Below, one piece after another: positions 42,292 through 64,000 of a stretch of DNA of 64,000 nt. The position numbers and the translations under genes were made by a program. Under the pieces are notes generated by a model. That model did no database searches, was not told where the DNA came from, and saw only the letters and a program-made list of their open reading frames with translations. The stretch is from the NCBI GenBank assembly GCA_913058245.1, contig CAJXQJ010000007.1, positions 62,001 through 126,000 on the forward strand. The letters run 5' to 3'. Each line of letters opens with the position of its first letter. Within the stretch, counting starts at the first letter, position 1. Source of the DNA: an uncultured Colwellia sp. (GTDB lineage: Bacteria > Pseudomonadota > Gammaproteobacteria > Enterobacterales > Alteromonadaceae).

Positions 42292-42307
42292 TAATGATTA
42301 AATTGAA

Positions 42308-47818: not shown

Positions 47819-47938
47819 AATGAATTATCACTATTGACAATAAATTTTCATATGTAATTTTTATAGTAAGGTTATGATTTCATAAATTTATTTTAATTAC
47901 TGATACACCATGGCTGAAATTAATCAGTTGTGGTGTTT

Positions 47939-49675
47939 ATGAAGAAAGAAAATGTAACAAGTATTTTAATTGAAGATATTAAAGCTAAATATATAGTAAA
48001 CAATGCCAGTGTAAAATCAGTAAAACAATTAAATTTTTATCTATCAAGGGCTAAAACTACTCAAGATAAGAAAACGATTAAAGATTTTAATTCATTTTTA
48101 TCAAATAATTCATTACTCGATTTTTATCAACAAATTATCAAGTCTAAAAATTCCTCCACTTTCACTACTAAACAATTAACCGACATAAAAAATAAAATAT
48201 CAACAATCTCTTCACCACAGCAACCTCAAAGTAAAAATGACGTTATTTTAGATCAAGTGATTAGTATTTATAGAAAATATATAGAAAGGTTTGAAAATGG
48301 TGAAAAAGTTATCTTCAAAAAGTCATGGTTCAATGATTTAGTACTTGGCATACCAAAGAATGCTAATACTGGTAAAGAATATCAAAACGGAAATTCGTAC
48401 TTACTTGGTATGCTTCAAGAAGATAAAGGCTTAGATTTACCATTCTTTTTGAACAATGGAGATATCAAAGAACTTGGAATTATTGAAAATGATAAGCCAA
48501 AGTTTCCAATAGCTATTTGTGCCAAATTAATTGAATTATATCTAAACGATAACTTGCCAAATTTAGACAAAAAAAAGTGGATCTCAGCAAAAAAATATAA
48601 TTTACTTACAGAAGCTCAACAAGATAAATATCAAGCTAAGAAAATAGTTAAGCATTTCCCTCTCTACCATCATTCCCAGTTTGAAGACTCTTTAAAAAGT
48701 AATACAGTATACCAAAAATGGATCAGTGGATTTTCAGAAACAACATTATTAGAAAAATTGAAATTATGTAATTCTGATGATGAAAGAAGAGCACTTTTTG
48801 ATCCGAAAATAAATGCAGCAAGAAATTATATTGAAGCAGCAAGAAGTCAGATGGATGTAGATTTAATACATCATAATTCTAGTTGTCATTATTCCCCAGC
48901 TCATGACGAAATATCATTAGTCAGTGAAGATAATTTTGTTGGTGATGCCCCTGAACTTTCATATTTAGGTGTATTGGCACATGAGTTATCTCATGCAACA
49001 GGGCATGAATTTAGATTAAAAAGAAAGTTAACAGGTAAATTTGGCTCTCAAAACTATGGCTTTGAAGAGCTTGTAGCGGAATCTTCAAGTCTTCAACTTT
49101 TAAAACAGTTTAACTTACCTTCGGTATTAGATGAGCAAAGTGCTAGTTACATTTATGGTTGGCTTCAGACCCAAAAAAATAAAAATGGTAAAGACTTTTT
49201 AAAAATAGCATGCCAGCAAGGTAGTCAGGCTAAAAGCTTTATAAATGATGCATATAATGATTTTGTAGTGGAAGCTAAGCTAAGTTTTGATATAAAAACT
49301 GTAGTACGAACAGCGAACAATTTGATTGAAATGTCTAACGAATCTCTTTATCAATGTCATCTGTTAATACAGCAAGTAAATCAGTTACATCAAACCCATT
49401 TATTATCAACTCCGCAAGAAGAGTTAGCTTCACAAAAGTGTGTAAATAAATTCGATGAATATCTTAAATTGAAAATTGGCTATGGTATTCAAGATATTCA
49501 GTTAGTGAAAAATAAAATTGAGCAATCCGTCTTTCCTGAGTTTTTAAATGAGCAATACTTTGATCATAATAAAACCCACTCAAGCCCACTAAAAATCAAC
49601 CATTTAGATGTGAATGAGCAAAATAGTCCTGTAGATCTACTATCAAGTAAATCTAAGAGCAGGAAGTATGTTTAA
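47939..49675 (+). CDS. ArdC-like antirestriction protein with zincin metallopeptidase domain
   Basis: 578 residues. A central ssDNA-binding-like ArdC N domain is suggested by the STGxxY/ISAKKYN style segments around 140-260. A zincin domain follows, with HExxH as H348-E-L-S-H352 in LAHELSHATGHEFRLKRKL, then FGSQNYGFEELVAESSS and the SASYIYGWL block. Both follow ArdC-family order. ArdC proteins shield incoming plasmid DNA from host restriction (family knowledge). The first about 120 residues are an unrecognised extension. I use the ATG at 47939 over the tandem GTGs before it. It lies in the mobility block, upstream of a restriction system on the same element. Confidence 0.78.
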   Translation: MKKENVTSILIEDIKAKYIVNNASVKSVKQLNFYLSRAKTTQDKKTIKDFNSFLSNNSLLDFYQQIIKSKNSSTFTTKQLTDIKNKISTISSPQQPQSKNDVILDQVISIYRKYIERFENGEKVIFKKSWFNDLVLGIPKNANTGKEYQNGNSYLLGMLQEDKGLDLPFFLNNGDIKELGIIENDKPKFPIAICAKLIELYLNDNLPNLDKKKWISAKKYNLLTEAQQDKYQAKKIVKHFPLYHHSQFEDSLKSNTVYQKWISGFSETTLLEKLKLCNSDDERRALFDPKINAARNYIEAARSQMDVDLIHHNSSCHYSPAHDEISLVSEDNFVGDAPELSYLGVLAHELSHATGHEFRLKRKLTGKFGSQNYGFEELVAESSSLQLLKQFNLPSVLDEQSASYIYGWLQTQKNKNGKDFLKIACQQGSQAKSFINDAYNDFVVEAKLSFDIKTVVRTANNLIEMSNESLYQCHLLIQQVNQLHQTHLLSTPQEELASQKCVNKFDEYLKLKIGYGIQDIQLVKNKIEQSVFPEFLNEQYFDHNKTHSSPLKINHLDVNEQNSPVDLLSSKSKSRKYV

Positions 49676-49854
49676 CCATTTGAACCATAGAAGTTAATAC
49701 AATTTCAAAGGTTGTCCAAGTTGACAAATTTACGAATAAGTTATACTAAGTTGATGAAAACGTTAAAGAAATTAAAATAAAGATCTTTACAGAGGGATTT
49801 TTTTTTGTTACTATTAGGCCAACTTGAGATAGACACTTGTCTGCAATTGATATG

Positions 49855-49979
49855 TAAAGCGTAAGCTTTGTATTGATTATTACAAAGAATGGAAATTGAA
49901 ATGTTAAATAAAATCTCAGTGAGATTTACCCTTAATGGGAGGTGTTGCAAAAAATAATTTTTGTGCCGTATAGCCTCCC
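49855..49979 (+). promoter_or_regulatory. Leader copy A: duplicated 125-bp leader with mini-ORF and hairpin
   Basis: Near-identical to 51107-51231 (16 differences in 125 bp by hand count, no gaps). It contains a 22-codon reading frame at 49889-49957 with an internal ATG preceded by GGAAATTGA. Its end runs into a hairpin, AATGGGAGG (49935-49943) / CCTCCCATT (49974-49982). The enclosed part has a smaller GCAAAAA / TTTTTG pairing. It lies 26 bp before the next gene. The 330 bp between the ArdC-like gene and 50006 contain nothing else recognised. This could be a translational or attenuation leader. Confidence 0.6.
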
Positions 49980-50005
49980 ATTGCTCAAAAAAAGTGGAGA
50001 CTACT

Positions 50006-50602
50006 ATGAATTTACAAACTATTAATACCCCCCCTTTATTATCAGATATTGAAGTTGAAATAATACAAATGTCTGAAATGCTTCGCCAAGGCTGGTTTGC
50101 CGTTGGCACAAAACTGCTACTTGTTGAAAAACACGAATTGTATAAACAAAGCAAGCAAAAAAGTTTTACATCATGGCTTAATACATTAAGTCAAACGCTT
50201 GATTTAAAACCATCAACGCTTTGGAAGTATCTAAAAATCGTCAGAATGATTGATGATATTAATCTTCCGACTGAGAACGTGAATTTAAAAAATGTCACTG
50301 GCTTAGAGCAAATAGCACGAATTTATGATGTTAACCAAAATGCTAATGAAGCTATAGCTTTAACAAAGCTACTAGAAGAAAAAATTATTAATGTTGCCCT
50401 CATTACGAAATTAGCCAAAGTTAGTTCTACCACATCTGTTCTTGAAGAACGTCCAGAGAAAGATATTTCTGAACCCTTAGAGAATAAAAAAGGCTTTTGG
50501 ACAAACTCAAGTAAAAGTTTTCTAGCTGTAGTTACACCTAAGACAACAATAAGCTTGTCATTTATTTTGTTAGTCGTTTTTTACATCAAAGATATGTATT
50601 AA
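50006..50602 (+). CDS. Unrecognised protein with DUF3102-like helical region and C-terminal membrane anchor
   Basis: 198 residues. The start at 50006 has GTGGAG 6 bp upstream; the in-frame start at 49961 would lie inside the leader hairpin. Residues about 15-80 (LRQGWFAVGTKLLLVEKHELY, then SFTSWLNTLSQTLDLKPSTLWKYLKIVRMI) look like the DUF3102-type plasmid/phage domain with a putative helix-turn-helix. The last about 20 residues are hydrophobic (SLSFILLVVFYIKDMY), suggesting a tail anchor. The role is unknown; the leader before it is shared with the gene at 51256. Confidence 0.5.
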   Translation: MNLQTINTPPLLSDIEVEIIQMSEMLRQGWFAVGTKLLLVEKHELYKQSKQKSFTSWLNTLSQTLDLKPSTLWKYLKIVRMIDDINLPTENVNLKNVTGLEQIARIYDVNQNANEAIALTKLLEEKIINVALITKLAKVSSTTSVLEERPEKDISEPLENKKGFWTNSSKSFLAVVTPKTTISLSFILLVVFYIKDMY

Positions 50603-50661
50603 AAAATAATAATCTAACTGTTAAAAAATCAATAATTAAAACAAGAATGAAGGTGAATAAA

Positions 50662-50967
50662 ATGAATATTAAAGGTTATAACTCTACAAAAATTAACGGT
50701 AGTACATTTGTATATAAAGGTGAAGGTATTATTCTTCTGGGTAAAATTGAGGATATTTTAACTAATGCGATGATATTTCCTAAGAAAAAGCATTTAGTTA
50801 TTTTAGACCTGTTGAAAACAACTGAAAGACACGTATTACATGAAGGGTATGCGCTTTATTATGATCATTTAAACAGTCCTAACCCTAGCATTACGGATCG
50901 GGAGAGAACTGCTACTGAAAAAGCTATGCATCTTATATTATTAGCTTTAGATGGCTCTTATGTGTAG
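50662..50967 (+). CDS. Hypothetical protein, 101 residues
   Basis: Not recognised. The ATG at 50662 is chosen because AAGGTG lies 7 bp before it. Mixed alpha/beta composition with a hydrophobic N-terminal part (GEGIILLGKIEDIL) and a helical C-terminus (ATEKAMHLILLALDGS). It sits 59 bp after the previous gene on the same strand, within the block of small element-borne genes. Confidence 0.5.
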   Translation: MNIKGYNSTKINGSTFVYKGEGIILLGKIEDILTNAMIFPKKKHLVILDLLKTTERHVLHEGYALYYDHLNSPNPSITDRERTATEKAMHLILLALDGSYV

Positions 50968-51106
50968 AAAAAATCAAATATCAAAAAAAAGACTGGAGGT
51001 GAAATTGATAAAAATTAGATTGTATTGAAACAAATTACAATCGTCATATAGATCGGATGTGATGGGCTTGAAATTTATAAAATAGCCTTGAAAAATTATT
51101 TAAATT

Positions 51107-51231
51107 TAAAGCATAAGCTTTGTATTGATTATTCCAACTAATGGAAATTGAAATGTTAAACAAAATCTTAGTGAAATTAATCACGAGTAGGAGGTGTTAC
51201 AAAAAATAATTTTTGTGCCGTATAGCCTCCT
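51107..51231 (+). promoter_or_regulatory. Leader copy B: duplicated 125-bp leader with mini-ORF and hairpin
   Basis: Second copy of the 49855-49979 element, 24 bp before the gene at 51256. The reading frame (22 codons from the ATG at 51141) is kept without indels, though with several amino-acid changes. The hairpin core AGGAGG / CCTCCT keeps pairing: the outer pair is A-T here and G-C in copy A, a compensatory change. The upstream inverted repeat CTTTGTA / TACAAAG seen in copy A is lost. Confidence 0.6.
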
Positions 51232-51255
51232 TTTATCTAAAATCTGGAGCGTAAA

Positions 51256-51651
51256 ATGAATATAAACGAAGTAAAATTACTAAAAAAAATGATTGAATGG
51301 CACATCAATGAAAGTAAAAGTCATTTAAATAAAATTAAAACTTTTAAAGTTAATAAAAAATACAATGAATTTTTTCAATTCATTCACACCGAACTAAACC
51401 CACTTCATGCCACACCTTGGCTGGTAATAAGACAAAAACTTTACATAAATAAATCTGTAAGAAAAGTAAAAGAAATATTTATGTCAGGTCGAGTTACTTT
51501 TCCTGAGCATTACATTCTAGGCTCTAAAGTTATGGAATTAAAACAACAGGTTTCTGATTTAGCTAGAGATTTAGAAGAGCAGATATTAACCGAACAAATG
51601 AGCCAGTCGTTTAACGTTAAACCTGATGTTATATATAGAGAGCGTGACTGA
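51256..51651 (+). CDS. Hypothetical helical protein, 131 residues
   Basis: Not recognised. Predicted mostly helical, basic N-terminal half (KKMIEWHINESKSHLNKIKTF) and an amphipathic helix near the C-terminus (VMELKQQVSDLARDLEEQIL). CTGGAG 7 bp upstream supports the start. It is preceded by leader copy B and followed by a terminator, so it is probably a monocistronic unit controlled like the gene at 50006. Confidence 0.5.
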   Translation: MNINEVKLLKKMIEWHINESKSHLNKIKTFKVNKKYNEFFQFIHTELNPLHATPWLVIRQKLYINKSVRKVKEIFMSGRVTFPEHYILGSKVMELKQQVSDLARDLEEQILTEQMSQSFNVKPDVIYRERD

Positions 51652-51669
51652 AGCCGTTTTTTAGTCAGA

Positions 51670-51697
51670 TAAAACGGAGTTAATCACTCCGTTTTTT
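51670..51697 (+). terminator. Rho-independent terminator after the 131-residue gene
   Basis: AAAACGGAGT / ACTCCGTTTT (51671-51680 and 51686-51695) with a five-base loop and T tail. Its core resembles the hairpin at 44504-44527 after the recombinase gene. Confidence 0.9.
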
Positions 51698-51806
51698 ACC
51701 TATATTCTTTTATTTTTAATAAAAGCTATTTATTAAAAACCAATAGTTGTTTTTGTAACGATATTTGATATCGTATCAATATTAATTATTAAATAATGGG
51801 TTTATT

Positions 51807-52094
51807 GTGATTTCAGGAATGAATGGCGGTAATTGTATCTTAAGCTCTATGGCTAAAATTAGAGTTGAAAGCAAAGTGATTGATAAAGCTCAAGTTGTTG
51901 GAAGTAAGGGCGAGTATCAGGTTGTTTTTTATGGTTCTGCTGCTGAATGGGATGGTAAGCCCATTGTACTGAGTAGCTCAAGGCAGCCATACGAAGCACG
52001 AATTTTCAAAAGTTTAGATGGTGCTATAGCTGAATTAACTAGAATCGGCTTAACTGAAGCATCGGTAAAAATTGTCGAAAGAAATGAAAACTAA
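51807..52094 (+). CDS. Hypothetical small protein upstream of the type III R-M genes
   Basis: 95 residues from GTG 51807; 81 if the ATG at 51849 (MAKIRVES...) is used. Neither has a good ribosome-binding site. Not recognised. The body alternates strands and helices, with WDGKPIVLSSSRQPYEARIF and a helical FKSLDGAIAELTRIG. It lies 74 bp before mod, so it might be a small regulator of the restriction genes (inference from position only). Confidence 0.45.
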   Translation: MISGMNGGNCILSSMAKIRVESKVIDKAQVVGSKGEYQVVFYGSAAEWDGKPIVLSSSRQPYEARIFKSLDGAIAELTRIGLTEASVKIVERNEN

Positions 52095-52168
52095 TCAGTA
52101 ATTAAGTCAATTTCTCCATTTACCTGTAACTGATTATTAATATAAAAATAAATTTAGGTCTTAACATC

Positions 52169-54079
52169 ATGACAATACAAGAAGAAACTCTACACTCAAA
52201 TACCGAAACCGTAAACAGTAAACAAATTGCCACCCTAAAAAAATATTTTCCACAATGTTTTGATAAAGAGGGTAACTTCATCCAAGAGAAAATGCTTGAA
52301 GTGGTAAATGCAAATGAAACCGAGCTTTCAAAAGAATCTTATACATTAAACTGGCTTGGTAAATCATATGCTCGACTACTTGCTAACCTTCCTCCCAAAA
52401 CACTGATAAATGCTGATAATGAGCATAACCAACTAGAGCAAAACAAAGATAGCCAAAATCTGCTTATCAAGGGAGATAACCTTGAAGTATTAAAGCATAT
52501 GGTTAATGCCTATAGTGAAAAGATAAAGATGATCTATATCGATCCACCTTACAATACTGGTTCTGATGGTTTTGTATATAATGATGACCGTAAATTTACT
52601 AAAGAACAACTTAGTGAGCTTGCTGGGATTGAGCTGGATGAAGCTGAACGTATCTTAGAGTTTACTGATAAGGGGTCTAGCAGTCACAGTGCTTGGTTAA
52701 CCTTTATTTACCCACGCCTTTATATAGCAAGAGAATTACTAGCAGATAATGGAGTGATTTATATTTCAATTGATGATAACGAATTAAATCAATTGAAATT
52801 ACTTTGTGACGAAATATTTGGGGAACAGAATTTTGCTGGGAATATTGTTAGATCAACGGGTCAAACTACAGGACAAGATAGTGGTGGTTTAGGTACTTCG
52901 TTTGATTACATTCTTGTATATACCAAAGTACTTGATGTTGACTTAAGTGGCTTACCTTTAACAGAACACGATTTAAAAAGGTTTCAAAATAAAGACTCTA
53001 AAGGAAATTATGCATTTGACCAAATGCGAAAAACAGGAAGTAATGATAAAAGAACAGACCGCCCTAATATGTATTATGCAGTAATAGATCCAGATGGCGA
53101 TGAAGTGTTTCCTATTGCATCTGCTGGCTATGAAAGTTGCTGGCGTTTCGGAAAACCAACGTATGAACAATTAGTCAAAGATGACATGGTTCTTTGGAAA
53201 AAAACGAAACGAGATGGTGGTGAAATATGGTGGCCTTATATTAAATACTATCTAGAAGGAAGAACCAAAAGACCATCTCCTCTATGGACAGATCTTGAAG
53301 GTAATAAAAAAGCTTCTCGTGATTTAAGAACGTTATTTAATGGTAAAAAATTATTTAGTTTCCCTAAACCGATTCAGGTTCTTAAAAACCTAATTCATAT
53401 AGCCCCAGAATCCTCAAAAAGCGATATTATATTAGATTTTTTTGCTGGTTCAGGATCTACTGCCCATGCTGTTTTAGAGGCTAACTCAGAAGATAATGGC
53501 AATAGACAATTTATATCTATTCAAATTCCTGAAGAGATTGAGCCAGCTTCAGAGGCCTACAAAGAAGGTTATAAAACTATTTTTGATATAACCAAAGCCC
53601 GAATCATCAAAGCAGCACAAAAAATTAAAGAAGAAAAACCCGAATATAAAGGTAATTTTGGTTTTAAAATTTATAACTCTGTAGACGATTTTCGTGTAAC
53701 TACAGATGACGAATTATCTTTATCACAACCTACGATGTTCGATGATGCGATGCTCACTGATGCTCAATATAATACCCTTCTAACTAGCTGGTCATTACAT
53801 GATGGTAGCTTATTAACAACATCTATCAAGATAATTGACCTTGTTGACTATCAAGCCCATTACTGTGATGGTCGCTTATACTTAATAGCACCAAATTTTT
53901 CTACTGATGCACTTAAAGAACTCCTAATAAAGCTTGACGAAGATAAAACATTTGCCCCGCATAAAATCGTGTTTTATGGCAATAATTTTGAAAGTGCAAA
54001 ACAAATGGAACTTAACGAAGCTCTTAAAAGTTACGCGAATAAAAAATCTTTAGAGCTTGAAGTTGTGGTGAGATATTAA
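52169..54079 (+). CDS. mod: Type III restriction-modification methyltransferase (Mod)
   Basis: 636 residues. Beta-class N6-adenine methyltransferase: catalytic motif IV D125-P-P-Y-N-T-G comes before the S-adenosylmethionine motif I, D423-F-F-A-G-S-G. The DNA-recognition region lies between them (about 200-400). VYISIDDNELNQLKLLCDEIFG after the catalytic motif is a Mod hallmark. It gives the recognition sequence and self-protection. One base separates its stop from the res start. No repeat tract of the kind used for phase variation is seen in the gene. Confidence 0.93.
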   Translation: MTIQEETLHSNTETVNSKQIATLKKYFPQCFDKEGNFIQEKMLEVVNANETELSKESYTLNWLGKSYARLLANLPPKTLINADNEHNQLEQNKDSQNLLIKGDNLEVLKHMVNAYSEKIKMIYIDPPYNTGSDGFVYNDDRKFTKEQLSELAGIELDEAERILEFTDKGSSSHSAWLTFIYPRLYIARELLADNGVIYISIDDNELNQLKLLCDEIFGEQNFAGNIVRSTGQTTGQDSGGLGTSFDYILVYTKVLDVDLSGLPLTEHDLKRFQNKDSKGNYAFDQMRKTGSNDKRTDRPNMYYAVIDPDGDEVFPIASAGYESCWRFGKPTYEQLVKDDMVLWKKTKRDGGEIWWPYIKYYLEGRTKRPSPLWTDLEGNKKASRDLRTLFNGKKLFSFPKPIQVLKNLIHIAPESSKSDIILDFFAGSGSTAHAVLEANSEDNGNRQFISIQIPEEIEPASEAYKEGYKTIFDITKARIIKAAQKIKEEKPEYKGNFGFKIYNSVDDFRVTTDDELSLSQPTMFDDAMLTDAQYNTLLTSWSLHDGSLLTTSIKIIDLVDYQAHYCDGRLYLIAPNFSTDALKELLIKLDEDKTFAPHKIVFYGNNFESAKQMELNEALKSYANKKSLELEVVVRY

Positions 54080-54080
54080 A

Positions 54081-56981
54081 ATGGCAGGTTTTACTTTTGA
54101 AAAAAAACTACCTCATCAAGAGGCGGGTATCAATGCTGTAATGAGCTTGTTTATGGGAGCAGATCCCGTATCAGCTAACGATATGACAACTAGGTTACTG
54201 GCTAATCCAGAATTGCAAATTTCAAATTATCATTATTCAGCAAACATTAAAGCTGTTCAAGATTTTAATGGTATTGAGCATACCAAAGCTCATTACGACT
54301 GTAGTAACATCATTGATATATCAATGGAAACAGGTACAGGTAAAACCTACACCTATGCCAAAACGATGTACGACTTAAATAAAGCCTTTGGCTTAAACAA
54401 ATTTATCGTGATTGTACCTACTCTATCAATCAAAGCAGGTACAGTAAACTTTCTTAAAAGTGATGCATTAAAGGAACATTTTCGTGATGATTATGAACGA
54501 GAAATAAAAACGTATGTGGTTGAAAGTAAAAAAGGTTCTAAGAAGAATACTAAAGCTTACATGCCGCAATCAATCCAAGATTTTGTTAATGCTAACAGTG
54601 TAAGCAAAAAATATATTCACGTTCTTATCATCAACTCAGGTATGATCAATTCGCCTTCACTGCAAGAAGATAAATATGATACTGGTTTATTTAATAATCA
54701 GTTTGACTGTCCTGTAGATGCACTTAAAGCTGTTAAACCTATTATTATCGTTGATGAGCCTCATAAATTCCCTACAGCTAAAAAAACATGGGAAAACATT
54801 GAACGAATACAAGCTCAGTATATTATTCGTTATGGTGCTACTTTTAATGATGATTATAAAAATCTTGTCTATCGGTTAACTGCTGTTGATGCATTTAATG
54901 ATGATTTGGTAAAAGGTATCAATGCATACATTGAAGATGTTGTAGGTGATGATACTGCTAACCTAAAATTAAAAAACGTTGATGGTAAGGAAGCTATTTT
55001 TGAACTTAATGAAAGTGGGAACAAAACATTATATTCTCTAGCTAAGGGAGACTCTTTGGCAAAATCACATTCAGCTATTGAAGATCTTTTTATTGATGGT
55101 ATGAATAAATCAACTGTGCTTTTAAGTAACGGTATTCAGCTTAAAAAAGATGAGTCTATTAATCCATATTCATACGCTCAAACACTTGAAGATAATATGA
55201 TGCGTAAAGCTATCAAGGAACACTTTAAGCTTGAACGTGATTTCTTGACACAAAAACCTCGCATTAAACCATTATCACTTTTCTTTATTGATGATATTAA
55301 AGGCTACCGTGATGGTAATGACCTTTCAGGTAGTCTAAAAACTAAGTTTGAAGAATGGGTTGTAGCAGAAGCCAAACAATACCTAAAGGTAGAAACAGAC
55401 CCTTTCTATAAAGATTATTTAGAGAAAACGATTAAAGATGTTTCGGTGGTTCATGGTGGTTACTTTTCAAAAGATAATAGTGATAAAGACGATAAGATAG
55501 AAAAAGAAATCATTGAAATTTTACACGATAAAGAACTACTACTTTCATTAGATAATCCAAGACGTTTCATCTTTTCAAAGTGGACTTTACGTGAGGGGTG
55601 GGATAATCCTAATGTGTTCCAAATTTGTAAATTACGCTCTAGTGGTAGCACTACATCTAAACTTCAAGAAGTTGGACGTGGTTTACGCCTCCCCGTTAAT
55701 GAATATATGGCTCGTGTTAAAGACCGTACATTTAGTCTAAATTACTATGTCGATTTTACAGAGAAAAATTTCGTTGATGATTTAATTAAAGACGTTAACG
55801 AATCTTCATTTAAAGAGACTATCCCCGCTAAGCTTACACAGGAGATATTAGATAAAATAAAATCTAACTACCCTGATCAAGATGAGCTAGACATAATGAT
55901 AGATTTGCGGACTAATGGTGTTATTGATGGCAACAAGAATTTCATCAATGAAGGATATTCTCGCCTTAAAGATACTTACCCTAAAGCTTTTCCTGCTGGC
56001 GTTAGGCCAGGAAAAATTAAAAAAGCTGATGGGGCTAAAAAACGTACTTCTATGCGTGTAGGAAAGTATCAAGAGCTTAAAGAGCTATGGGAACTTATCA
56101 ATCATAAAGCTGTTCTTGAATACAAAATCAAAGATGAAGAGAAATTTTTTGATCTGTTTAAAGAATACTTAGATGGTGAAGCAGGTAGTTTTAAGAAAAC
56201 AGGTGTAAGAACAAGAGTAGAGCAACTTTATATTCATAATGAAATAGCGATGTCTCGCAATATTTATAAAGAAGATGATGATTTTGCCAAATTTAGCACA
56301 ATGAGTTATCGAGAATTTTTAGAGCGTTTATCACAACTTGCGTTTATTAAAATCTCAACTTTACACAGAGCATTTATTGAAATAAAAGATGTTGTTGATA
56401 TTACGGATTACTTGAACATACAAACTATCCGTAAGATTAAATCAGGTTTTAGTTCATTCCTACTAAACAACGCCTTCACTCAGTTCCAACTTGGGTATAA
56501 CGTTATTTCTAATACCATACACCCAAGTAAGTTTACCAATACTAAAGGTGAAGCTTTACCTGATGTTTTATCAAGTGATCTAGGTGTTCATAGCGATGAA
56601 ACTGTACCGCCACACGATTCATACCTTTTTGAAGATGTTTTCTATGATTCTGAATTAGAAAAAGATAACATCATTGAAGAAATTGAATCAGTTACGGTTT
56701 TTACGAAGATCCCAAAAAACTCCATTAAAATCCCTGTAGCTGGCGGTTTCACTTACTCACCAGACTTTGCTTATGTGGTTAAAACAAAGGATAACCAGAT
56801 ATTAAACTTTGTTGTTGAAACTAAAAATGTTGATCGCAAGGATAGCTTACGTGAAGAAGAAAAACGTAAGATCAAACACGCAGAAGTCTTGTTTAATAAA
56901 ATTAGTGAAAAAGTGAAAGTGAACTTTAAAACCCAATTTGCCGATGATCTCGTTTATGATTTAATCAAGCAACATATATAG
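54081..56981 (+). CDS. res: Type III restriction enzyme subunit (Res)
   Basis: 966 residues. It has a superfamily 2 helicase core with Walker A T84-G-T-G-K-T89, DEPH box D225-H228, and the motif V/VI region REGWDNPNVFQICKLRSS and LQEVGRGLRLP. The C-terminal nuclease domain has PD-(D/E)xK residues D895 (SPDFAY), E913 and K915 (VETKN). All catalytic elements look intact. It works only in complex with Mod, translocating or sliding on unmethylated DNA and cutting near paired sites (family knowledge). The next gene starts 59 bp later. Confidence 0.94.
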   Translation: MAGFTFEKKLPHQEAGINAVMSLFMGADPVSANDMTTRLLANPELQISNYHYSANIKAVQDFNGIEHTKAHYDCSNIIDISMETGTGKTYTYAKTMYDLNKAFGLNKFIVIVPTLSIKAGTVNFLKSDALKEHFRDDYEREIKTYVVESKKGSKKNTKAYMPQSIQDFVNANSVSKKYIHVLIINSGMINSPSLQEDKYDTGLFNNQFDCPVDALKAVKPIIIVDEPHKFPTAKKTWENIERIQAQYIIRYGATFNDDYKNLVYRLTAVDAFNDDLVKGINAYIEDVVGDDTANLKLKNVDGKEAIFELNESGNKTLYSLAKGDSLAKSHSAIEDLFIDGMNKSTVLLSNGIQLKKDESINPYSYAQTLEDNMMRKAIKEHFKLERDFLTQKPRIKPLSLFFIDDIKGYRDGNDLSGSLKTKFEEWVVAEAKQYLKVETDPFYKDYLEKTIKDVSVVHGGYFSKDNSDKDDKIEKEIIEILHDKELLLSLDNPRRFIFSKWTLREGWDNPNVFQICKLRSSGSTTSKLQEVGRGLRLPVNEYMARVKDRTFSLNYYVDFTEKNFVDDLIKDVNESSFKETIPAKLTQEILDKIKSNYPDQDELDIMIDLRTNGVIDGNKNFINEGYSRLKDTYPKAFPAGVRPGKIKKADGAKKRTSMRVGKYQELKELWELINHKAVLEYKIKDEEKFFDLFKEYLDGEAGSFKKTGVRTRVEQLYIHNEIAMSRNIYKEDDDFAKFSTMSYREFLERLSQLAFIKISTLHRAFIEIKDVVDITDYLNIQTIRKIKSGFSSFLLNNAFTQFQLGYNVISNTIHPSKFTNTKGEALPDVLSSDLGVHSDETVPPHDSYLFEDVFYDSELEKDNIIEEIESVTVFTKIPKNSIKIPVAGGFTYSPDFAYVVKTKDNQILNFVVETKNVDRKDSLREEEKRKIKHAEVLFNKISEKVKVNFKTQFADDLVYDLIKQHI

Positions 56982-57040
56982 TAATAATTACTGCCTCTCA
57001 TCTGGGGTATTCAAATCTTTATGGATAAGGAATAAGACAA

Positions 57041-59041
57041 GTGCAAATTGATGTTAAGGGTAAAGTTAATAATCTCATATTATCACCGAGTGATCGTCTT
57101 GTTCCTGTTTTTGAGGCAATAGTAAACTCTATTCAAGCCACAAGTAAAAAAGCAAAAGCAGAGTTGACAGTAAAAGCTATTAGGCAAAATACTCAAAACG
57201 TTTTAAACGTGGAAGATAATAGCTATCAACAGATAGAATCTTTTGAAATAATTGATTCGGGTGAAGGCTTTAATAATGCAAATTACCAGTCATTCAAAAC
57301 CGCTGAATCAACCTTTAAATCGAGCTTGGGTTGTAAGGGGGTTGGTCGTTTTACATGGTTAAAAGCCTTTGAAACGGTTCTTGTCGAAAGTGTTTACAAC
57401 GAAGGTAACTCAAAGAAAAAATTAACTTTTGGTTTTTCCGTTGACGATGTAGATTTCAATAGTGAAGATATAATTGACGCTAAATCTTCTGATAAATTAA
57501 TAACGAAGGTTAGCTTAAAAACTGTTCAAGAACCTTATCGTAGTCGTTTACCTAAAACGTTGGATGCTATTGCATCTGAAATTATTGAACATTGTCTAAT
57601 TTACTTTCTTGAAGGGCAGATTAAAAGTTTTAAACTACAAGATGATTGTGGTGAAGAAGTTGATTTGTTGATTCTTTTCAATACCACTTACTCTCATGAT
57701 ATTGAGAAAAAAGAATTTAGTATTGGATCTAACTTGTTCAAAGCTCATTTCTTCAAGAACGTAAAAGTCAGTAAACAAAAAAACCATAAAGTGTTTTTGT
57801 GTGCTGATTCGCGCTCTGTAAAAGGTTGCACTTTAAAAGAGTATCAAGAAAATATTCCACCAATGTTTGAAGATACTGATGGGACTAAGTTTAATTATTC
57901 GATCTATGTTACATCCCCATACCTCGATACATATGTAAACCAAGAACGAACAGCTTTTAGGATTGCAGATAAAACAGATTTATGTGATGAAGATGAAAAT
58001 TCCCCAGCAATAAATACTATTATTATAGAGTTGATGGTTTTTGGTAATGAGGTATTTGAACCATTCTTAGAACCGATGTTTATAAAACATCGTGAAATGA
58101 TTGAAAGATATGTAAATCATAATGGTTATGAATATCGACATATAATAAAAAATCGTCCTTGTTGGCTTAAAAAAATACCTTTCGACTTATCGGATGAAAA
58201 ACTTGATATTGAGCTGCACAAATTAACCCGTAATTATGAAATGGAGTTAAAAAATGAAGCTCATCGTATAAAAGATGAACTCAAGCATAGTAAGGTTAAA
58301 GATTACTCTGCTTACAAAGAAGCTTTGCAAAGATATGCTGGTGATCTTAACGAAATAGGTAAGTCAAACCTTGCAAAGTATATAGTCCATCGCAAAGCTG
58401 TAATTGACGCTTTAGAATTTAGTTTGGAATTTCAAGAGAATGATAAATACGCTCTTGAAGATACTGTTCACGACATTATTATGCCTATTCGCTCTACCAG
58501 TGATGATGTGCAAGAAAACAATTTATGGCTGATTGATGAGCGTATGGCTTACCATAAGCACTTAGTATCAGATAAGTCATTCAAATCGGTTACTGATATT
58601 GACTCTAAAGAACGTCCAGATTTATTAGTTTTCAATAATCCTGTGGTATATGGAGATAATAGGCGTGAAACGTCTACAGCTATTATTATAGAGTTTAAAC
58701 GCCCTATGCGAGATAACTATAAGGGTAACGACAATCCAATAGATCAAGTTACTGGTTATATTTTGAAGTTGCGTAAGCGTGATCTGATTAAAGATGATAG
58801 AGGTAGAGAGATCTATCTTGATAAGAGAATCCCTGTCTACTGCTATGTGATTTGTGATTTAACATCTTCAATTCGAGAAATTTTGGAAATTAGAAACTAT
58901 AAGCCACTTTTAGATAATCAAGGCTATATATTCTATAACGATAACCTTAATGCTGTTATTGAGGTTATTTCATTTGATAAACTTTTAAGTGATGCAAAAA
59001 AGCGGAACAAAATTTTATTTAAAAAACTAAATCTAGAATAG
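57041..59041 (+). CDS. GHKL (Hsp90-like) ATPase with C-terminal nuclease-like domain
   Basis: 666 residues, GTG start with ATAAGGAAT upstream. The N-terminal ATPase shows E25 and N29 (VFEAIVNSIQA), the D72-S-G-E-G76 box and G97-CKGVGRF. These are the ATP-binding elements of the Hsp90/MutL/MORC group. A helical middle (about 370-480) leads to a C-terminal segment with R-P-D527 and E551-F-K553 (AIIIEFKRP), plus a Gln/Tyr helix. This pattern resembles a PD-(D/E)xK nuclease. It is probably an ATP-gated clamp with nuclease activity. It is not a known type III R-M component, yet it is co-oriented and closely spaced with res. Confidence 0.7.
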   Translation: MQIDVKGKVNNLILSPSDRLVPVFEAIVNSIQATSKKAKAELTVKAIRQNTQNVLNVEDNSYQQIESFEIIDSGEGFNNANYQSFKTAESTFKSSLGCKGVGRFTWLKAFETVLVESVYNEGNSKKKLTFGFSVDDVDFNSEDIIDAKSSDKLITKVSLKTVQEPYRSRLPKTLDAIASEIIEHCLIYFLEGQIKSFKLQDDCGEEVDLLILFNTTYSHDIEKKEFSIGSNLFKAHFFKNVKVSKQKNHKVFLCADSRSVKGCTLKEYQENIPPMFEDTDGTKFNYSIYVTSPYLDTYVNQERTAFRIADKTDLCDEDENSPAINTIIIELMVFGNEVFEPFLEPMFIKHREMIERYVNHNGYEYRHIIKNRPCWLKKIPFDLSDEKLDIELHKLTRNYEMELKNEAHRIKDELKHSKVKDYSAYKEALQRYAGDLNEIGKSNLAKYIVHRKAVIDALEFSLEFQENDKYALEDTVHDIIMPIRSTSDDVQENNLWLIDERMAYHKHLVSDKSFKSVTDIDSKERPDLLVFNNPVVYGDNRRETSTAIIIEFKRPMRDNYKGNDNPIDQVTGYILKLRKRDLIKDDRGREIYLDKRIPVYCYVICDLTSSIREILEIRNYKPLLDNQGYIFYNDNLNAVIEVISFDKLLSDAKKRNKILFKKLNLE

Positions 59042-59131
59042 TTTTAATAATAAATACTACAGATAGGAACAAGGAGAGTTAATACCCCCTTTTTTTTATT
59101 AACTTTGACTGATAATTTTAAGCACTATTCT

Positions 59132-60139
59132 ATGCAAAATACAGCACTAAAATCAAAGAAAGTTTCTAAATCAGATATAGCAACTCCCTTAGAATTAGTG
59201 AAATTTATATCTGAAATTGTTAGCTCTGTTATCCCAAAAGATAAAATTAGAACTATTTTAGATCCATGTTCTGGCTTAGAAAACCGTCTAACTCATTATT
59301 TTCCTGATACTAATGTGATCAGTTATGAAAAGAAGTTAGGTAAAGATTTTTTTGATGCTAAAAAAGAAGATTGTACTGACGTTGATCTTGTTCTGGTTAA
59401 CCCACCATTTAATAATGAAGTTAAGCATAAAAAAACGTTTTTACCTGAAGAATTTTTAAGAAAAATAATAGAAGTTGTTCCTGCTAATACCCCTATTGTA
59501 ATGATCGTTCCTTCTGGCTTTAGACAAAATGTTAGAAAACGATCCAAAAGACTATTATTTTTGTCGACACTTGAAATAAGTAGTATCGTTTCGCTAGGTT
59601 TAGATGTTTTTGAAGATGATGGAATATTATTTCACACAGAAATATTATTTATTGGAACGGGGTATTTTTCAAAGTTAAAACCCCATTACACTTATCATCA
59701 AAACACAGTAATAAAAAAACCACCTGAAAACTTACAAGATTTTCAATGCAAACTTTTAAAGTTTATAGGGATTGATTCAGGTTTATTATCAGTGATGAGA
59801 AATATTGTTTTTTCATTATCATTACAAGAAAGGGCAGGACAATTATTAGCAGCATTAATTTATAAGTTAGATTCAAATAACAAATTTATAATTAATTCAG
59901 ATTCAAGATCTGAACTAGCAATGTTAATTGATACATCACCACAAGTTATCACTAATCAAATTAAAGCTCTTGTTGATAGCCACTTAATAACAAAAGTTGC
60001 CAGAGGCACATATTATTATAATTTATTATCACCAGAAAATATTCGAAAAATAATTACACAAGATTTTGATTCAATATCTGTGGAACTGAAATTTTATAAA
60101 AATGATGTTAATCCTAAATCTTTAATTATTATTGATTAA
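59132..60139 (+). CDS. DNA-methyltransferase-like protein with C-terminal winged helix
   Basis: 335 residues from ATG 59132; an in-frame TTG at 59105 would add nine. Neither has a close ribosome-binding site: AAGGAG at 59071-59076 is too far away. The N-terminal Rossmann-like part has LDPCSGLENRL (motif I) and the catalytic VNPPFN with N90-P-P-F, as in N6-adenine/N4-cytosine methylases. The usual target-recognition domain is missing. Residues about 230-320 form a winged helix (SELAMLIDTSPQVITNQIKALVDSHLI) like RepL/MarR-type DNA binders. It could be a modification, decoy or regulatory enzyme of the neighbouring restriction system. Confidence 0.62.
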   Translation: MQNTALKSKKVSKSDIATPLELVKFISEIVSSVIPKDKIRTILDPCSGLENRLTHYFPDTNVISYEKKLGKDFFDAKKEDCTDVDLVLVNPPFNNEVKHKKTFLPEEFLRKIIEVVPANTPIVMIVPSGFRQNVRKRSKRLLFLSTLEISSIVSLGLDVFEDDGILFHTEILFIGTGYFSKLKPHYTYHQNTVIKKPPENLQDFQCKLLKFIGIDSGLLSVMRNIVFSLSLQERAGQLLAALIYKLDSNNKFIINSDSRSELAMLIDTSPQVITNQIKALVDSHLITKVARGTYYYNLLSPENIRKIITQDFDSISVELKFYKNDVNPKSLIIID

Positions 60140-60183
60140 AGGCTTTGGGCATAAAAAAAGATATTGAGATTAAGGGATTAATA

Positions 60184-61590
60184 ATGTCAAAAGTGAAAAC
60201 AGATATAGAATTAGCTAAATTATTTAGTGAAGAAATATATGAAAACTACAAGACAGCATTGGAGTTTTTACGAGAAAACCCAGATTATTCATTGTTAAAA
60301 TTCAGAAAAATTATTGAAAGTTTATGCGCTTTGATAGCGGATAAGTTCGTAGTTGAATTTAGTAGTGATAGCTTATTTGAGCTGATTAATACCCTTGAAA
60401 GGTCAGAAGTCATAAATAGAAATACAAAAAATCTTTTTCATGATTTACGTATTCTCTGTAATAACGGTGTACATGGTAATAATGTTAGTTCAACGAATGA
60501 CGATATCACTTTCATTGAAGAAGTTAAAAGTCTTTGTATAAAAAAAGCTGAGTCTGCAAGAAAGTTAATTGTTAAGCTATATGAAGATATCTATCTATTA
60601 CTAGGTTATGGGAAATCAATTTCGCAAGTTGAGTTGGTAGACTACAGCTTATATGAATTCAAACAATTAATCTTTGATGCAACCGTCAGTCTCACTTACC
60701 AAGCTAAGCTTAAAGCAGGAATTGCATATGAAACGATTGCTCAACAAGCAACAATCGGAATGCCCTTAGTTGTAGAAAATTCCTTTCAGTTGCATCATCA
60801 CGGCTTATTAAAATTAGCCGCTAGTCATTATTACACAGCTTTGAGGTTAAGTTTTGAAGAGTCACTCTATCGTTCAGACACTTCAAAAGCATATCTATAT
60901 TGTGATGTTGAATCATTATTTCGTTATGCGGTGATCGCTACTAGTGGTGTATTAGGCGAAGACAAATTTGATGAAGGTTTTAAGCTTGTTAAAATAGCAG
61001 CAGATAGGGGGTATAACGAAGCTATTGCTTTTTATGGTGCTTACTTATTCGATGAAGAACGTTTTGAAGAATCTAAAGACTATTTAACCAGAGCTATTAA
61101 AGTAGACTCCGCAATGGCTAACCGTTATTTATTTTATTTTTATACTGAAATCAAATTAGATAAAAATTTAGCAAAGAAACATCTTCAAAAAGCGATTGAA
61201 CTGGGATGTTGTGATTCTATTGGTGAGCTTGGTATTCTGTATCATAAAGGCTTTATTGTAGATAAAGATATTGATAAAGCAGAAGTTTTATTACTTGAGG
61301 CTATTGGAAAAGGAAGTTACGTAGCGAAACGGTATCATATTGTAGAGTTTAATGACCTTGTTGGTCAGATGCAGAAAGGAGCACAAGATTTTCTTGCTGA
61401 GTTTGATAAGGCTTTTGAACAAGTTCAAAACGAAATTGCTGAAGCAAAGCCTAAACCAATAAAAGCTGAAAAAATTAATAGAAATTCGTCTTGTCCTTGT
61501 GGTTCAAAAAAGAAGTACAAAAAATGCTGTGGTGGTAATATCGTTGAACTCAAGAAAGAAAATATAAAGCTAAATATATTTAGTCAATAA
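60184..61590 (+). CDS. DUF4145-like / SEL1-repeat / SEC-C zinc-motif protein
   Basis: About 468 residues. ATG 60184 has AAGGGA upstream; an earlier TTG at 60145 does not. The N-terminal about 120 residues resemble DUF4145 (SLLKFRKIIESLCALIADKF, then FHDLRILCNNGVHG), a domain often attached to restriction proteins. The middle contains SEL1/TPR-like repeats (about 270-410). The end is a SEC-C zinc motif, NRNSSCPCGSKKKYKKCCGG. Scaffold or nucleic-acid adaptor roles are plausible. It lies in the same tight run, 44 bp after the methylase-like gene. Confidence 0.7.
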   Translation: MSKVKTDIELAKLFSEEIYENYKTALEFLRENPDYSLLKFRKIIESLCALIADKFVVEFSSDSLFELINTLERSEVINRNTKNLFHDLRILCNNGVHGNNVSSTNDDITFIEEVKSLCIKKAESARKLIVKLYEDIYLLLGYGKSISQVELVDYSLYEFKQLIFDATVSLTYQAKLKAGIAYETIAQQATIGMPLVVENSFQLHHHGLLKLAASHYYTALRLSFEESLYRSDTSKAYLYCDVESLFRYAVIATSGVLGEDKFDEGFKLVKIAADRGYNEAIAFYGAYLFDEERFEESKDYLTRAIKVDSAMANRYLFYFYTEIKLDKNLAKKHLQKAIELGCCDSIGELGILYHKGFIVDKDIDKAEVLLLEAIGKGSYVAKRYHIVEFNDLVGQMQKGAQDFLAEFDKAFEQVQNEIAEAKPKPIKAEKINRNSSCPCGSKKKYKKCCGGNIVELKKENIKLNIFSQ

Positions 61591-61607
61591 ATTACAAGGA
61601 ATAAGTA

Positions 61608-62126
61608 ATGGTTAACAGATGTTCAATGACAGGTAGAGTGATAGAAGGCTCTGCTGATGCGGTATGGGATGATGGTGAATGGATTTCCTGGGAATGGATA
61701 AATGGTCAATTGCATGAACAGGAGTTAAAAGAACGTTACCCTGAAGCTGATATTGATCTGATACACATATTTGAAACTCTTGTTGATGACGCTTTTAACT
61801 ACAAACAAATTACGGGTAGATACTTACCTATTTTTGGTGAGTTAGGTGAGCTTTTTGCTGAAATTACTTTTGGTATAAAACGGCACAAGCCTAGAACCCA
61901 AGGATCTGATGGTAGATTGGGTAACGACTTTATTGAAATAAAGACAATTACACCAGAGAAAAGCAAAGAGAAAGTTAGCGTGAAAAGACAGGGTAATTTT
62001 AATAAGCTGTTGGTTGTTAAGATTAATGATGATTTCGAGTTTGAAGCTAGGATGTTGGATCGCAAAGATATGTCAAAAGGGGAAGGTAAATTAGCGACTG
62101 TTTCATGGTCATCAATGAAAAAATAG
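61608..62126 (+). CDS. Small PD-(D/E)xK-like nuclease domain protein
   Basis: 172 residues, not matched to a named family. The region GELGELFAEITFG (helix) is followed by GSD101...D107-F-I-E110-I-K112 and a basic VSVKRQGNFNKLLVVKI strand. This is the helix-acid-ExK-strand order of restriction-endonuclease folds. The N-terminus is Trp-rich (WDDGEWISWEWING). AAGGAATAAGTA gives a good start, 17 bp after the SEC-C gene. Likely the last gene of the cluster, and possibly its DNA-cutting effector. Confidence 0.55.
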   Translation: MVNRCSMTGRVIEGSADAVWDDGEWISWEWINGQLHEQELKERYPEADIDLIHIFETLVDDAFNYKQITGRYLPIFGELGELFAEITFGIKRHKPRTQGSDGRLGNDFIEIKTITPEKSKEKVSVKRQGNFNKLLVVKINDDFEFEARMLDRKDMSKGEGKLATVSWSSMKK

Positions 62127-62155
62127 TAGAGTACACAAAATGGAATATTAATCAT

Positions 62156-62518
62156 ATGAATTCATACAATGAAATAAAAGAGTTTATTTTATCAAAGCCA
62201 GAGGCCACTCTTGATTTTCCGTTTGGTGAAGATGTATCTGTTTTTAAAGTTAAGAATAAGATGTTCGCATTAATTGGTGAAAGAAATGACCTGATGATGT
62301 TAAACCTAAAGTGCGATCCTGATGAAGGAGCAGCTTTAAGGGATATCTATTCCTCCATCACAGAAGGTTATCACATGGATAAAAAACATTGGATTAGCGT
62401 CTATTTTGATAACAGCGTCCCTGAAAATGAAGTGAGAAGACTAATTGATAATTCTTATTTATTAGTAGTTAAAAAACTCCCTAAAAAAGCTCAAACATCA
62501 ATTTTAATAAAAATTTAG
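62156..62518 (+). CDS. yjbR: YjbR/MmcQ-family protein, complete copy
   Basis: 120 residues, the normal family length. It shows FPFGEDVSVFKVKNKMFAL, NLKCDPDEGAALRDIYSS, GYHMDKKHWISVYFDNSVPE and LIDNSYLLVVKKLP. It is a DNA-binding-type fold of unclear role in the family. It is related to, but clearly different from, the truncated copy at 42004. ATG 62156 begins the domain; the in-frame ATG at 62105 lies inside the nuclease gene. It follows the defence-like cluster by 29 bp. It could be the gene restored at the right end of the integrated element, or simply cargo. Confidence 0.8.
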   Translation: MNSYNEIKEFILSKPEATLDFPFGEDVSVFKVKNKMFALIGERNDLMMLNLKCDPDEGAALRDIYSSITEGYHMDKKHWISVYFDNSVPENEVRRLIDNSYLLVVKKLPKKAQTSILIKI

Positions 62519-62558
62519 CCTAATTATAGTTTTATGATATTTCTCTGATTATCTATGG

Positions 62559-62590
62559 CCATATTGACAGTGATGAAAGTATCAATATGG
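62559..62590. promoter_or_regulatory. Inverted repeat between yjbR and the next gene
   Basis: CCATATTGA (62559-62567) and TCAATATGG (62582-62590) form a perfect nine-base inverted repeat with a 14-base spacer. It lies 41 bp after yjbR and 153 bp before the next start. There is no T-run, so an operator is more likely than a terminator. Confidence 0.4.
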
Positions 62591-62742
62591 TAATTAGTAA
62601 CTTATTGAAGTAAATGTATTAACAAGCTATGGTTGTTTCCATCAATATTTTGGAGGCCAGTTGTCTTTTTTAGATGAAATCGGGCATTCTTCTTATAAAA
62701 GCTGTTAGGCATTCAGTCGTATATTTTAACAATGGAGTATTT

Positions 62743-63222
62743 ATGAAAGACTTACAAAAAATGATTCAAGACGCTGTAAAGAACTCAGGAGCTGATGAAT
62801 CTATCAGCACTGAGCTGGCAAGTAAGCTTGAAAGGGAATTGAATGAATTTGTAACTTTAAATAGCTTAAAAGCTAAACTTTCAGTTTTATTTGAATATGA
62901 AAAGAATTATTTAGAGTTAGTTAAAGAGTTCAAAGAAGAAATTAAATTTGCGAGTGGCATTCAAGAAGACTTAAGAAAAGAGCGTGCAAAGTTTTTCTCT
63001 GAAACACTAAAAGAGGTATCTTCAACTTTGACAGAATCTCAAGTTGAAAATAAAGTTGCTTCACAGTGGTTAAAGGAGCTTGTAGATAGCTATACAAAAA
63101 GCCTAGATTTAAGTGGCGGCCTTATAGAAGAGCACACTCTCGACATGATTGGTACTATTCGAGATAAAGCTAAAGACCAAAAGAATAATGTAGAAATTGC
63201 AAGCCAAAAGACGGATGCTTAA
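62743..63222 (+). CDS. Hypothetical coiled-coil protein, 159 residues
   Basis: Not recognised. Highly charged and helical, with a long coiled-coil run around residues 40-100 (LKAKLSVLFEYEKNYLELVKE...). GGAG 5 bp before ATG 62743 fixes the start; an upstream in-frame ATG at 62674 has no such site. First of three overlapping or closely spaced genes that look like one operon. Confidence 0.55.
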   Translation: MKDLQKMIQDAVKNSGADESISTELASKLERELNEFVTLNSLKAKLSVLFEYEKNYLELVKEFKEEIKFASGIQEDLRKERAKFFSETLKEVSSTLTESQVENKVASQWLKELVDSYTKSLDLSGGLIEEHTLDMIGTIRDKAKDQKNNVEIASQKTDA

Positions 63223-63688
63223 TAAGCAAGATTTACTGGGGGTTCTAGACTTGATGCGAAAAGCAAGGGGTGACTTAGTTTTACGTACAGCTCACGAATC
63301 TCCAGACTTATTTAGAAATTTTTTTGAATTTGAAAATGATTTTGATATGTTAAATTTGGCTTTTGAAAGAGAATTTAACTTATGGATAGATAAACATTTT
63401 GAAATGTTTGACAGTCATTTTAATCCTTCTGATTCACACAGCTCAATAACCCGTTTTAAAAGAGTTATGGTGGAGCTTGTAGAAAATAGAGTTATTAGGA
63501 CATCAACAACAAATGATTTAGCTAGTAAAGATTTTTGCATATCACTGCTATCAGAAAAAATTTCAATTCTTAATAATTTAATTGAAATATCTAAAAAAAA
63601 TGAAAAGCAGTATCAACGGCTTTTATATTCCTATCAAAAAGATAAAACTCTTTTCGATAGGGAGTTTAAGAAACTAATGGAGGAATAA
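63215..63688 (+). CDS. Hypothetical helical protein, 157 residues
   Basis: Not recognised. All-helical composition (FFEFENDFDMLNLAFEREFNLWIDKHFEMF; later coiled-coil IEISKKNEKQYQRLLYSYQK). The ATG at 63215 overlaps the previous gene's end by 8 bp, indicating translational coupling. The next gene begins 1 bp after its stop. Function unknown. Confidence 0.55.
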   Translation: MLNKQDLLGVLDLMRKARGDLVLRTAHESPDLFRNFFEFENDFDMLNLAFEREFNLWIDKHFEMFDSHFNPSDSHSSITRFKRVMVELVENRVIRTSTTNDLASKDFCISLLSEKISILNNLIEISKKNEKQYQRLLYSYQKDKTLFDREFKKLMEE

Positions 63689-63689
63689 T

Positions 63690-64000
63690 ATGAGTTGGCT
63701 AACTAAATTTGGCGGTGCTTTAGTTGATTGTATAAGTAAACCAATAGATGCTCTTTGTGAATGGGCAACAGAACCCTTAGAGGGGCGCAGACATGAAAGG
63801 AGTGAGAGTTCTAAATCTTCATCACATAGTCGTGATGTTGAGTTACAAGAATCCAGAATAAAAGCTGAGTCAGAAGCAAAAATCAATGAAAAAGAGGCTG
63901 AGGTTGATTTAGAAATAAAGCGAGTTAAGGGTATTGAGGTTGCTATTGCTGAAATTGCTGAATGGAAGAAAGATAAAGAATTTGAGCGAATGAAAAAAAC
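63690..64000 (+). CDS. Hypothetical protein, N-terminal part (runs off the window)
   Basis: 103 residues visible, no stop before the edge. It starts MSWLTKFGGALVDCISKPIDAL, an amphipathic or membrane-touching helix. A Ser/Arg-rich linker (RRHERSESSKSSSHSR) and a long, highly charged coiled coil (Glu/Lys heptads) follow. GGAGGAATAAT lies just upstream. It completes the three-gene operon as far as seen. No family recognised. Confidence 0.55.
   Translation, partial: MSWLTKFGGALVDCISKPIDALCEWATEPLEGRRHERSESSKSSSHSRDVELQESRIKAESEAKINEKEAEVDLEIKRVKGIEVAIAEIAEWKKDKEFERMKK

Follow-up and report, generated by a model that had tools for sequence, protein, structure and literature searches.

We found that a 22.6-kb integrative element with a serine recombinase lies in the host gene yjbR of an uncultured Colwellia sp., and that its cargo probably consists of anti-phage genes that are stacked and separately mobile, with a single recurrent pairing, that of a type III restriction-modification (R-M) pair with a gene for a Shedu-type GHKL nuclease. 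This reading is based on gene content, domains, conserved active-site residues, the borders of the element and neighbourhoods elsewhere. The window, which is the whole stretch of 64,000 nucleotides that was analysed, had been singled out for six genes on one strand that were taken as a candidate new defence system (the original prediction). These six genes lie where they were placed, with gaps of 1 bp (mod-res), 59 bp (res-GHKL), about 90 bp, 44 bp and 17 bp (gene 5-gene 6), and their domain calls hold, several of them below the Pfam cut-off. Two genes were absent from the original list, the yjbR gene at 62105-62518 and the small gene o95 at 51807-52094. The six-gene cluster is cargo of the element. 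The features are as follows.

42004..42261, + strand: 5' piece of the split host yjbR, at the left border of the element
42262..64000, + strand: integrative element (on to 64840, past the window; 22,579 bp in total)
42308..44464, + strand: the element's large serine recombinase, with matches to Resolvase (9.9e-15), a zinc ribbon (2.5e-7) and Recombinase (2.9e-5)
51758..51774, no strand: palindrome ACGATAT-TTG-ATATCGT, a possible operator ahead of o95-mod-res
51807..52094, + strand: o95, a small conserved gene at the head of the type III operon
52169..54079, + strand: mod, type III DNA methyltransferase (PADLOC MTase_III 4.7e-221; Pfam N6_N4_Mtase and EcoP15I C-domain)
54081..56981, + strand: res, type III helicase-endonuclease (PADLOC REase_III E=0, 1413 bits)
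56982..57026, + strand: spacer between res and the GHKL gene with a weak hairpin (z -1.6)
57041..59041, + strand: gene 3, GHKL ATPase with Shedu-type PD-(D/E)xK nuclease, paraMORC3/VcSduA kind, 666 aa
59132..60139, + strand: gene 4, methylase-fold N-terminus with winged-helix-like C-terminus, an orphan
60184..61590, + strand: gene 5, DUF4145 (HEPN) with Sel1 repeats and SEC-C
61608..62126, + strand: gene 6, small PD-(D/E)xK-like protein, DUF6998-like
62105..62518, + strand: the element's own intact yjbR (Pfam YjbR 3.7e-32)

A YjbR search of the genome itself gave an N-terminal piece at 42007-42285 of the window, a C-terminal piece at 64835-64966 and the intact gene at 62105-62518. The host gene is split at TAAG (42261 / 64841), which is present at both junctions, and its 3' part runs from 64841 on. 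The joined host YjbR has 130 aa and shares 87% identity with the intact gene of a genome of the same genus (G015) and 72-78% with those of 15 others; the same two genes precede yjbR in G015 as at the left border. Because the two pieces join into one host gene, the element is delimited as 22,579 bp in host yjbR, and the predicted mobile element now has its borders. The serine recombinase sits at its left end, and GC is 0.28-0.34 in the element versus 0.37-0.42 to its left, with the drop at 42 kb. In the search for direct repeats at the element ends, the best were 12, 11 and 9 bp long, none at matching places, and only TAAG is shared. The element's own yjbR, which is 45% identical to the joined host copy and overlaps gene 6 by 22 bp, is apparently a spare for the host gene that the element breaks. 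None of the papers listed in a literature search on serine-recombinase integrative elements contained yjbR, and a single-sequence IMG/VR scan with the recombinase gave no relative, which is weak evidence as such scans find close relatives only.

Three other observations were made on the element and its insertion site. In G015, about 1.7 kb downstream of the intact gene, lies a further short C-terminal fragment of yjbR that contains a stop (G015:C19:47338-47454), perhaps a trace left by an earlier insertion at the same site. At 47930-49675 of the window, on the same element as the R-M genes, lies a gene of anti-restriction type with an ArdC-like N-terminus and a zincin-like peptidase domain. 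Three small genes with no Pfam match above the cut-off occupy 62674-64460, between the element yjbR and the right border.

Mod carries the Pfam domains N6_N4_Mtase (3.8e-33) and EcoP15I C-domain (2.1e-30), and Res carries ResIII (3.7e-18) and RE_endonuc (5e-23); Res also matches NCBIfam PRK15483 with 1093 bits at a cut-off of 564. An N6/N4 methylase with an EcoP15I-type C-domain thus adjoins an SF2 helicase with an endonuclease domain. These matches, together with those of PADLOC, bear out the predicted complete type III pair, and by its sequence mod-res is an EcoP1I-like, ordinary pair. In type III systems, Mod methylates an asymmetric site on a single strand, and Res cleaves DNA without this mark, for which two oppositely oriented sites are needed. 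Res relatives are frequent on plasmids, with 286 matching records, 132 of them at 60-80% identity, and 69-73% identity in the 60 listed of the 286.

The small gene o95 was found on 53 plasmid records, and 26 of the 30 listed o95 records (of 53) recur among the 60 listed res records (of 286). It gave a weak ParC-like match in NCBIfam (0.025). Its Xenorhabdus counterpart (L100) is 71% identical and has the same position. The palindrome ends 32 bp before the start of o95 and was seen in none of 100 shuffles even at one mismatch, the pattern having been picked after it was seen. It is exact in Xenorhabdus L100, and with mismatches it was recognised by eye upstream of o95 in five of the six res plasmids viewed (L186, L187, L188, L189 and L191); the sixth, the P1-like L190, is without o95 at that place. 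From the sequence, o95 could encode a control protein, with the palindrome as its operator.

Shedu nucleases act on phage DNA. The gene 3 protein matches Pfam HATPase_c_3 just below the Pfam cut-off (1.2e-4) and nothing in PADLOC. Its N-terminus has the conserved motifs of GHKL ATPases and resembles Hsp90/MORC3 in structure comparison, and its C-terminal PD-(D/E)xK domain has the Shedu fold, with the E. coli and Bacillus Shedu proteins as best fold matches. Sequence searches gave weak or no match. The SduA_C/DUF4263 profile matched one of 39 sequences weakly (E 0.013), the window protein not being that one; hhalign of the GHKL family against two Shedu proteins gave no match, with a profile that is thin since its sequences are 78% alike; a PDB profile search gave no Shedu match; and Foldseek with the C-terminal domain gave no match at 0.001 and no Shedu among the 50 matches listed. 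The Shedu assignment therefore comes from fold comparison, on which basis the protein is of the paraMORC3/VcSduA kind, Shedu type I-D. The original prediction did not recognise the set among named anti-phage systems; this protein, however, does belong to a named kind. In the available part of the report on VcSduA (PMC12137116), that protein of the paraMORC3 kind defends alone as a single gene, without R-M genes.

Gene 4 starts at ATG 59132, 90 bp after the GHKL gene, or alternatively at TTG 59105, 63 bp after it. Its Pfam matches are all below the cut-off (N6_Mtase 5.2e-4, HTH 0.0051), its PADLOC matches are weak (AbiEi 3.6e-5, MTase 5e-5), and there is a weak RepL-like HTH match (0.011). The NPPF motif is retained; a DPxxGxG-like stretch is missing its second glycine, which the four aligned relatives have. 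No full-length relative was found in plasmids, phages, IMG/VR, 368 other genomes of the class or 388 other genomes of the order. The methylase part alone matched five phage records (best Lau218, 33%) and, as partial matches, two of the 388 order genomes; one partial match (8e-4) came from the 368 class genomes, and the winged-helix half had no relative in the collections searched. Since none of these collections gave a full-length relative, gene 4 was ruled out as a conserved partner.

HEPN domains are mostly RNases. Gene 5 starts at ATG 60184, 44 bp after gene 4, with TTG 60145 also open, and matches DUF4145 (8.2e-7; 29.4 bits versus 23.1) and SEC-C (2.3e-6) above the Pfam cut-off and Sel1 (3.5e-5) below it, the Sel1 part also having profile matches in PDB. 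PADLOC gave partial matches to PDC-M16A (1.5e-8) at the DUF4145 end and to E2 (1e-7) at the SEC-C end. The DUF4145 profile match together with the conserved polar residues H86, R89, N93 and H97, invariant in nine sequences, places it among the DUF4145 (HEPN) proteins. Relatives at E 1e-8 were found in 25 of 388 other order genomes (26 of 389 with its own), in a scan with the SEC-C end cut off, as the full protein was swamped by short SEC-C-only matches; an IMG/VR scan matched only this C-terminal end and was left unused. The nearest relative (G557, locus L088), 50-52% identical, is the last gene of a different operon with matches to HEC-06/SspE-type and LmuB-type models. Another lies behind viperin (L050) and a third is without a same-strand partner (L051). 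Because it is found beside several unrelated genes, the gene 5 family is without a fixed partner.

A side observation concerns viperin. In L050 the DUF4145/Sel1 gene lies directly 3' of an annotated viperin gene (viperin-like radical SAM) with the ends overlapping, and in L093, L095, L096 and L097 the protein upstream of the DUF4145/Sel1 gene is viperin-like by eye; it is possible that the DUF4145/Sel1 protein is a viperin partner.

Gene 6 matches Pfam DUF6998 below the cut-off (1.8e-4) and nothing in PADLOC. E81, D101, D107, E110 and K112 are invariant in eight sequences, and these conserved E...D...ExK residues point to a PD-(D/E)xK active site. The gene is present on 57 plasmid records, of which four were viewed, and its neighbours there are a cassette-like array (L015), a conjugative plasmid (L014), transposases on both sides (L016) and DUF262 (L017). 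The order genomes hold two relatives at good length and two weak partial matches. Residues 89-168 (window 61872-62111) also match the PDB sequence of ribosomal protein L2 (E 3.3e-4), probably by chance.

Neighbourhoods elsewhere separate what travels together from what does not. A genome scan with the GHKL protein gave 379 relatives, and the neighbourhoods of the best 80 were taken with flanks of at most 10 kb (less where the contig was small) and gene matches at E 1e-5. In Xenorhabdus vietnamensis (L100), o95 (71%), mod (51%), res (69%) and GHKL (74%) are present in the same order, with a res-GHKL gap of 45 bp, and are followed by transposase genes. In three Coriobacteriia (L141, L152 and L156), the order mod-res-GHKL recurs with gaps of 58-61 bp, the Mod and Res proteins there being distantly related, and an IMG/VR res locus with GHKL (L254) is 91% identical to L141. 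Among the best 80 of 379 loci, 45 have a same-strand gene of at least 100 aa ending at most 300 bp upstream of GHKL. The directly upstream gene is res in four, hsdS in three and SduA in one, and the remainder of these neighbours is mixed; 76 of the 80 loci have no res match within the flanks. GHKL is absent from 59 of 60 IMG/VR res loci within the stretch around res (54 of the 60 with detectable mod) and from the surroundings of res in all six res plasmids viewed (of 286 records). These counts of the pairing versus loci without it make GHKL an optional but recurrent add-on, and the unit of type III and Shedu is real though uncommon.

Other GHKL relatives have other neighbours. On the six plasmid records viewed (of 57), these are type I R-M genes (L005, L006), SIR2 (L007), an IS (L008), an HD-domain gene with hypothetical genes (L009) and an integrase (L010). 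Among 59 relatives of the host genome, a full-length GHKL gene is present in Pseudoalteromonas caenipelagi (G033), which belongs to the same GTDB family as the host, and there is one further match (6e-4). A single-sequence IMG/VR scan gave no GHKL relative, weak evidence again given its reach. In L006 and L163, a type I R-M operon is followed by a Shedu gene and then a GHKL-Shedu gene, which places two Shedu-type nucleases behind hsdS.

None of genes 4, 5 and 6 was found beside GHKL in the best 80 of 379 loci. No two of them are adjacent in any of the 388 other order genomes; relatives of two of them lie on separate contigs in G557 and 12.6 kb apart, with other genes between, in G045. With the exception of gene 4, every part has relatives in other gene surroundings. 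The recurrence that was to be expected of a system thus extends to mod-res-GHKL, in two distant groups, and no second copy of the six-gene set turned up in the collections searched. The shared orientation of the six genes is true, but it is no evidence for a system: every one of the 19 ORFs counted as element genes reads along the + strand, and common orientation and short gaps therefore weigh little.

We infer the activities, the clamp step, the backup role and the functions of genes 4-6 as follows. In o95-mod-res, Mod would mark host DNA, and Res would track from unmarked sites and cut. The GHKL domain may act as an ATP-driven dimer clamp that closes on DNA or on a DNA-bound complex and frees the C-terminal PD-(D/E)xK nuclease. 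The Shedu protein would then back up R-M against phages that escape it, the two forming layers with different targets. Genes 4-6 may have been acquired one by one: gene 5 as what is probably an HEPN RNase carried by a Sel1 scaffold, with growth arrest as its likely effect; gene 6 as a putative small PD-(D/E)xK nuclease; and gene 4 as a methylase-fold/winged-helix protein, perhaps a DNA-binding regulator. Some findings sit less easily with stacked cargo. The kept order, the conservation of GHKL (74%) like that of res (69%) in Xenorhabdus and the recurrence in Coriobacteriia hint at more than chance; genes 4-6 are closely spaced with no + strand terminator between them in a simple scan; and the mobility of gene 4 elsewhere is unsupported, as it has no full-length relative.

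It is rather unlikely that mod, res and the GHKL-Shedu gene form one coupled type III system with genes 4-6 as passengers. Here Res would summon the Shedu protein, either when translocation is stalled or blocked or when anti-restriction proteins are bound to Res/Mod, and it would destroy the DNA left uncut by Res. The same order and short gaps in Xenorhabdus, the three Coriobacteriia and L254 are consistent with such coupling, as is the similar divergence of GHKL and res between the window and Xenorhabdus (pN 0.18 and 0.19). According to the available part of PMC2292703, R-M loci that combine GHKL ATPases with type III-like helicases were already on record in 2008. In a quick tree of GHKL proteins, the type III-linked ones fall in two places, where long branches meet, and the group table counts labelled rows only. 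The drawn tree therefore needs two changes, which stands against coupling; a single clade of the five type III-linked proteins is not rejected (p-AU 0.503; the drawn tree is 0.83 log units better). Also against coupling are the 76 loci without a res match and the action of VcSduA without R-M genes in the part of PMC12137116 at hand.

The spacer behind res bears on the same question. With z values computed against mononucleotide shuffles, a hairpin follows res in five of six plasmids without GHKL (z -3.7 to -6.6; none in L188), the sequences of L186 and L191 being identical there, and Xenorhabdus L100 has a strong terminator-like hairpin between res and GHKL (z -4.4). These hairpins suggest that GHKL is a later add-on, placed behind the res terminator in the line of the window and Xenorhabdus; the two Coriobacteriia tested had no hairpin between res and GHKL. 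A terminator 3' of the GHKL gene was also considered and is unsupported (z -0.6), and promoter- and terminator-like sites in 50.5-64 kb were not above shuffles.

It is unlikely that genes 4-6 serve the maintenance or regulation of the element and not defence, next to a normal type III R-M and Shedu pair. The phage and order-genome relatives of the methylase part of gene 4, its RepL-like match and the position of genes 4-6 next to the spare yjbR would fit such a role; the invariant HEPN residues of gene 5, its relative behind viperin and the full nuclease motif kept in gene 6 argue for defence, and the available part of PMC3710099 lists DUF4145-Sel1 proteins together with R-M loci. Quite doubtful is a conserved four-gene extended type III system, o95-mod-res-GHKL/Shedu, in which Res would recruit or trigger a MutL/MORC-like clamp nuclease, with the core in Gammaproteobacteria and Coriobacteriia and with o95 and the palindrome as a gammaproteobacterial switch. 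If this were true, type III R-M would gain a second, ATP-gated effector, and the mod-res-GHKL core would be old enough to span both groups. A new integrated defence system made up of all six genes is very improbable, since the tight spacing on one strand, the lack of a + strand terminator in the simple scan and the nucleic-acid- or defence-related look of all six are outweighed by the neighbourhoods of the GHKL loci and the order genomes, on which it was ruled out, by the one-strand layout of the whole element and by the orphan gene 4.

The stacked-cargo reading corrects a tempting one: genes that lie side by side in one orientation on a mobile element are a system only if they also move as a set. 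The genes that do so are those of a type III R-M pair and a Shedu-type GHKL nuclease, and this links two defence families. The parts are known, and the combination of a true type III Mod-Res pair, a paraMORC3/Shedu I-D gene and a leading o95 is one that we did not find described. The literature search, made by title and abstract with subscription papers outside its scope, gave no description of a type III mod-res with a Shedu I-D/paraMORC3 gene and no paper on a third gene appended to mod-res.

Compared with EcoP1I/EcoP15I, the window has Mod and Res of the same families, in the same order and likewise 1 bp apart, but a GHKL-Shedu gene follows res, which the six plasmid copies viewed are without. 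The DUF4145 HEPN-Sel1 proteins in the available part of PMC3710099 share the DUF4145-Sel1 fusion and R-M neighbourhoods with gene 5, whereas gene 5 has a SEC-C end and its family is beside several unrelated genes here. Shedu I-D/paraMORC3 proteins such as VcSduA have the same GHKL ATPase N-terminus, MORC/Hsp90-like middle and C-terminal PD-(D/E)xK domain of Shedu fold; E25 and K553 of the window protein are close in number to the tested E27 and K557 of VcSduA as given in the part of PMC12137116 at hand. The window protein differs in lying directly behind a type III res and in that Pfam SduA_C is undetected. The MORC/paraMORC R-M operons of PMC2292703 are alike in having GHKL ATPases beside R-M genes, including type III-like helicase loci. 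In its available part, that paper describes MORC genes with type III-like helicases and proposes a joint action of GHKL ATPases and R-M enzymes, which means that linking GHKL to R-M is not a new idea; its type III-like helicase operons have MORCs, whereas the window has a paraMORC3-type protein with a full Mod-Res pair. With this one small cluster, the 2008 proposal becomes directly testable, and if the two are coupled, the cluster would show how a restriction enzyme licenses a MORC/MutL-like clamp.
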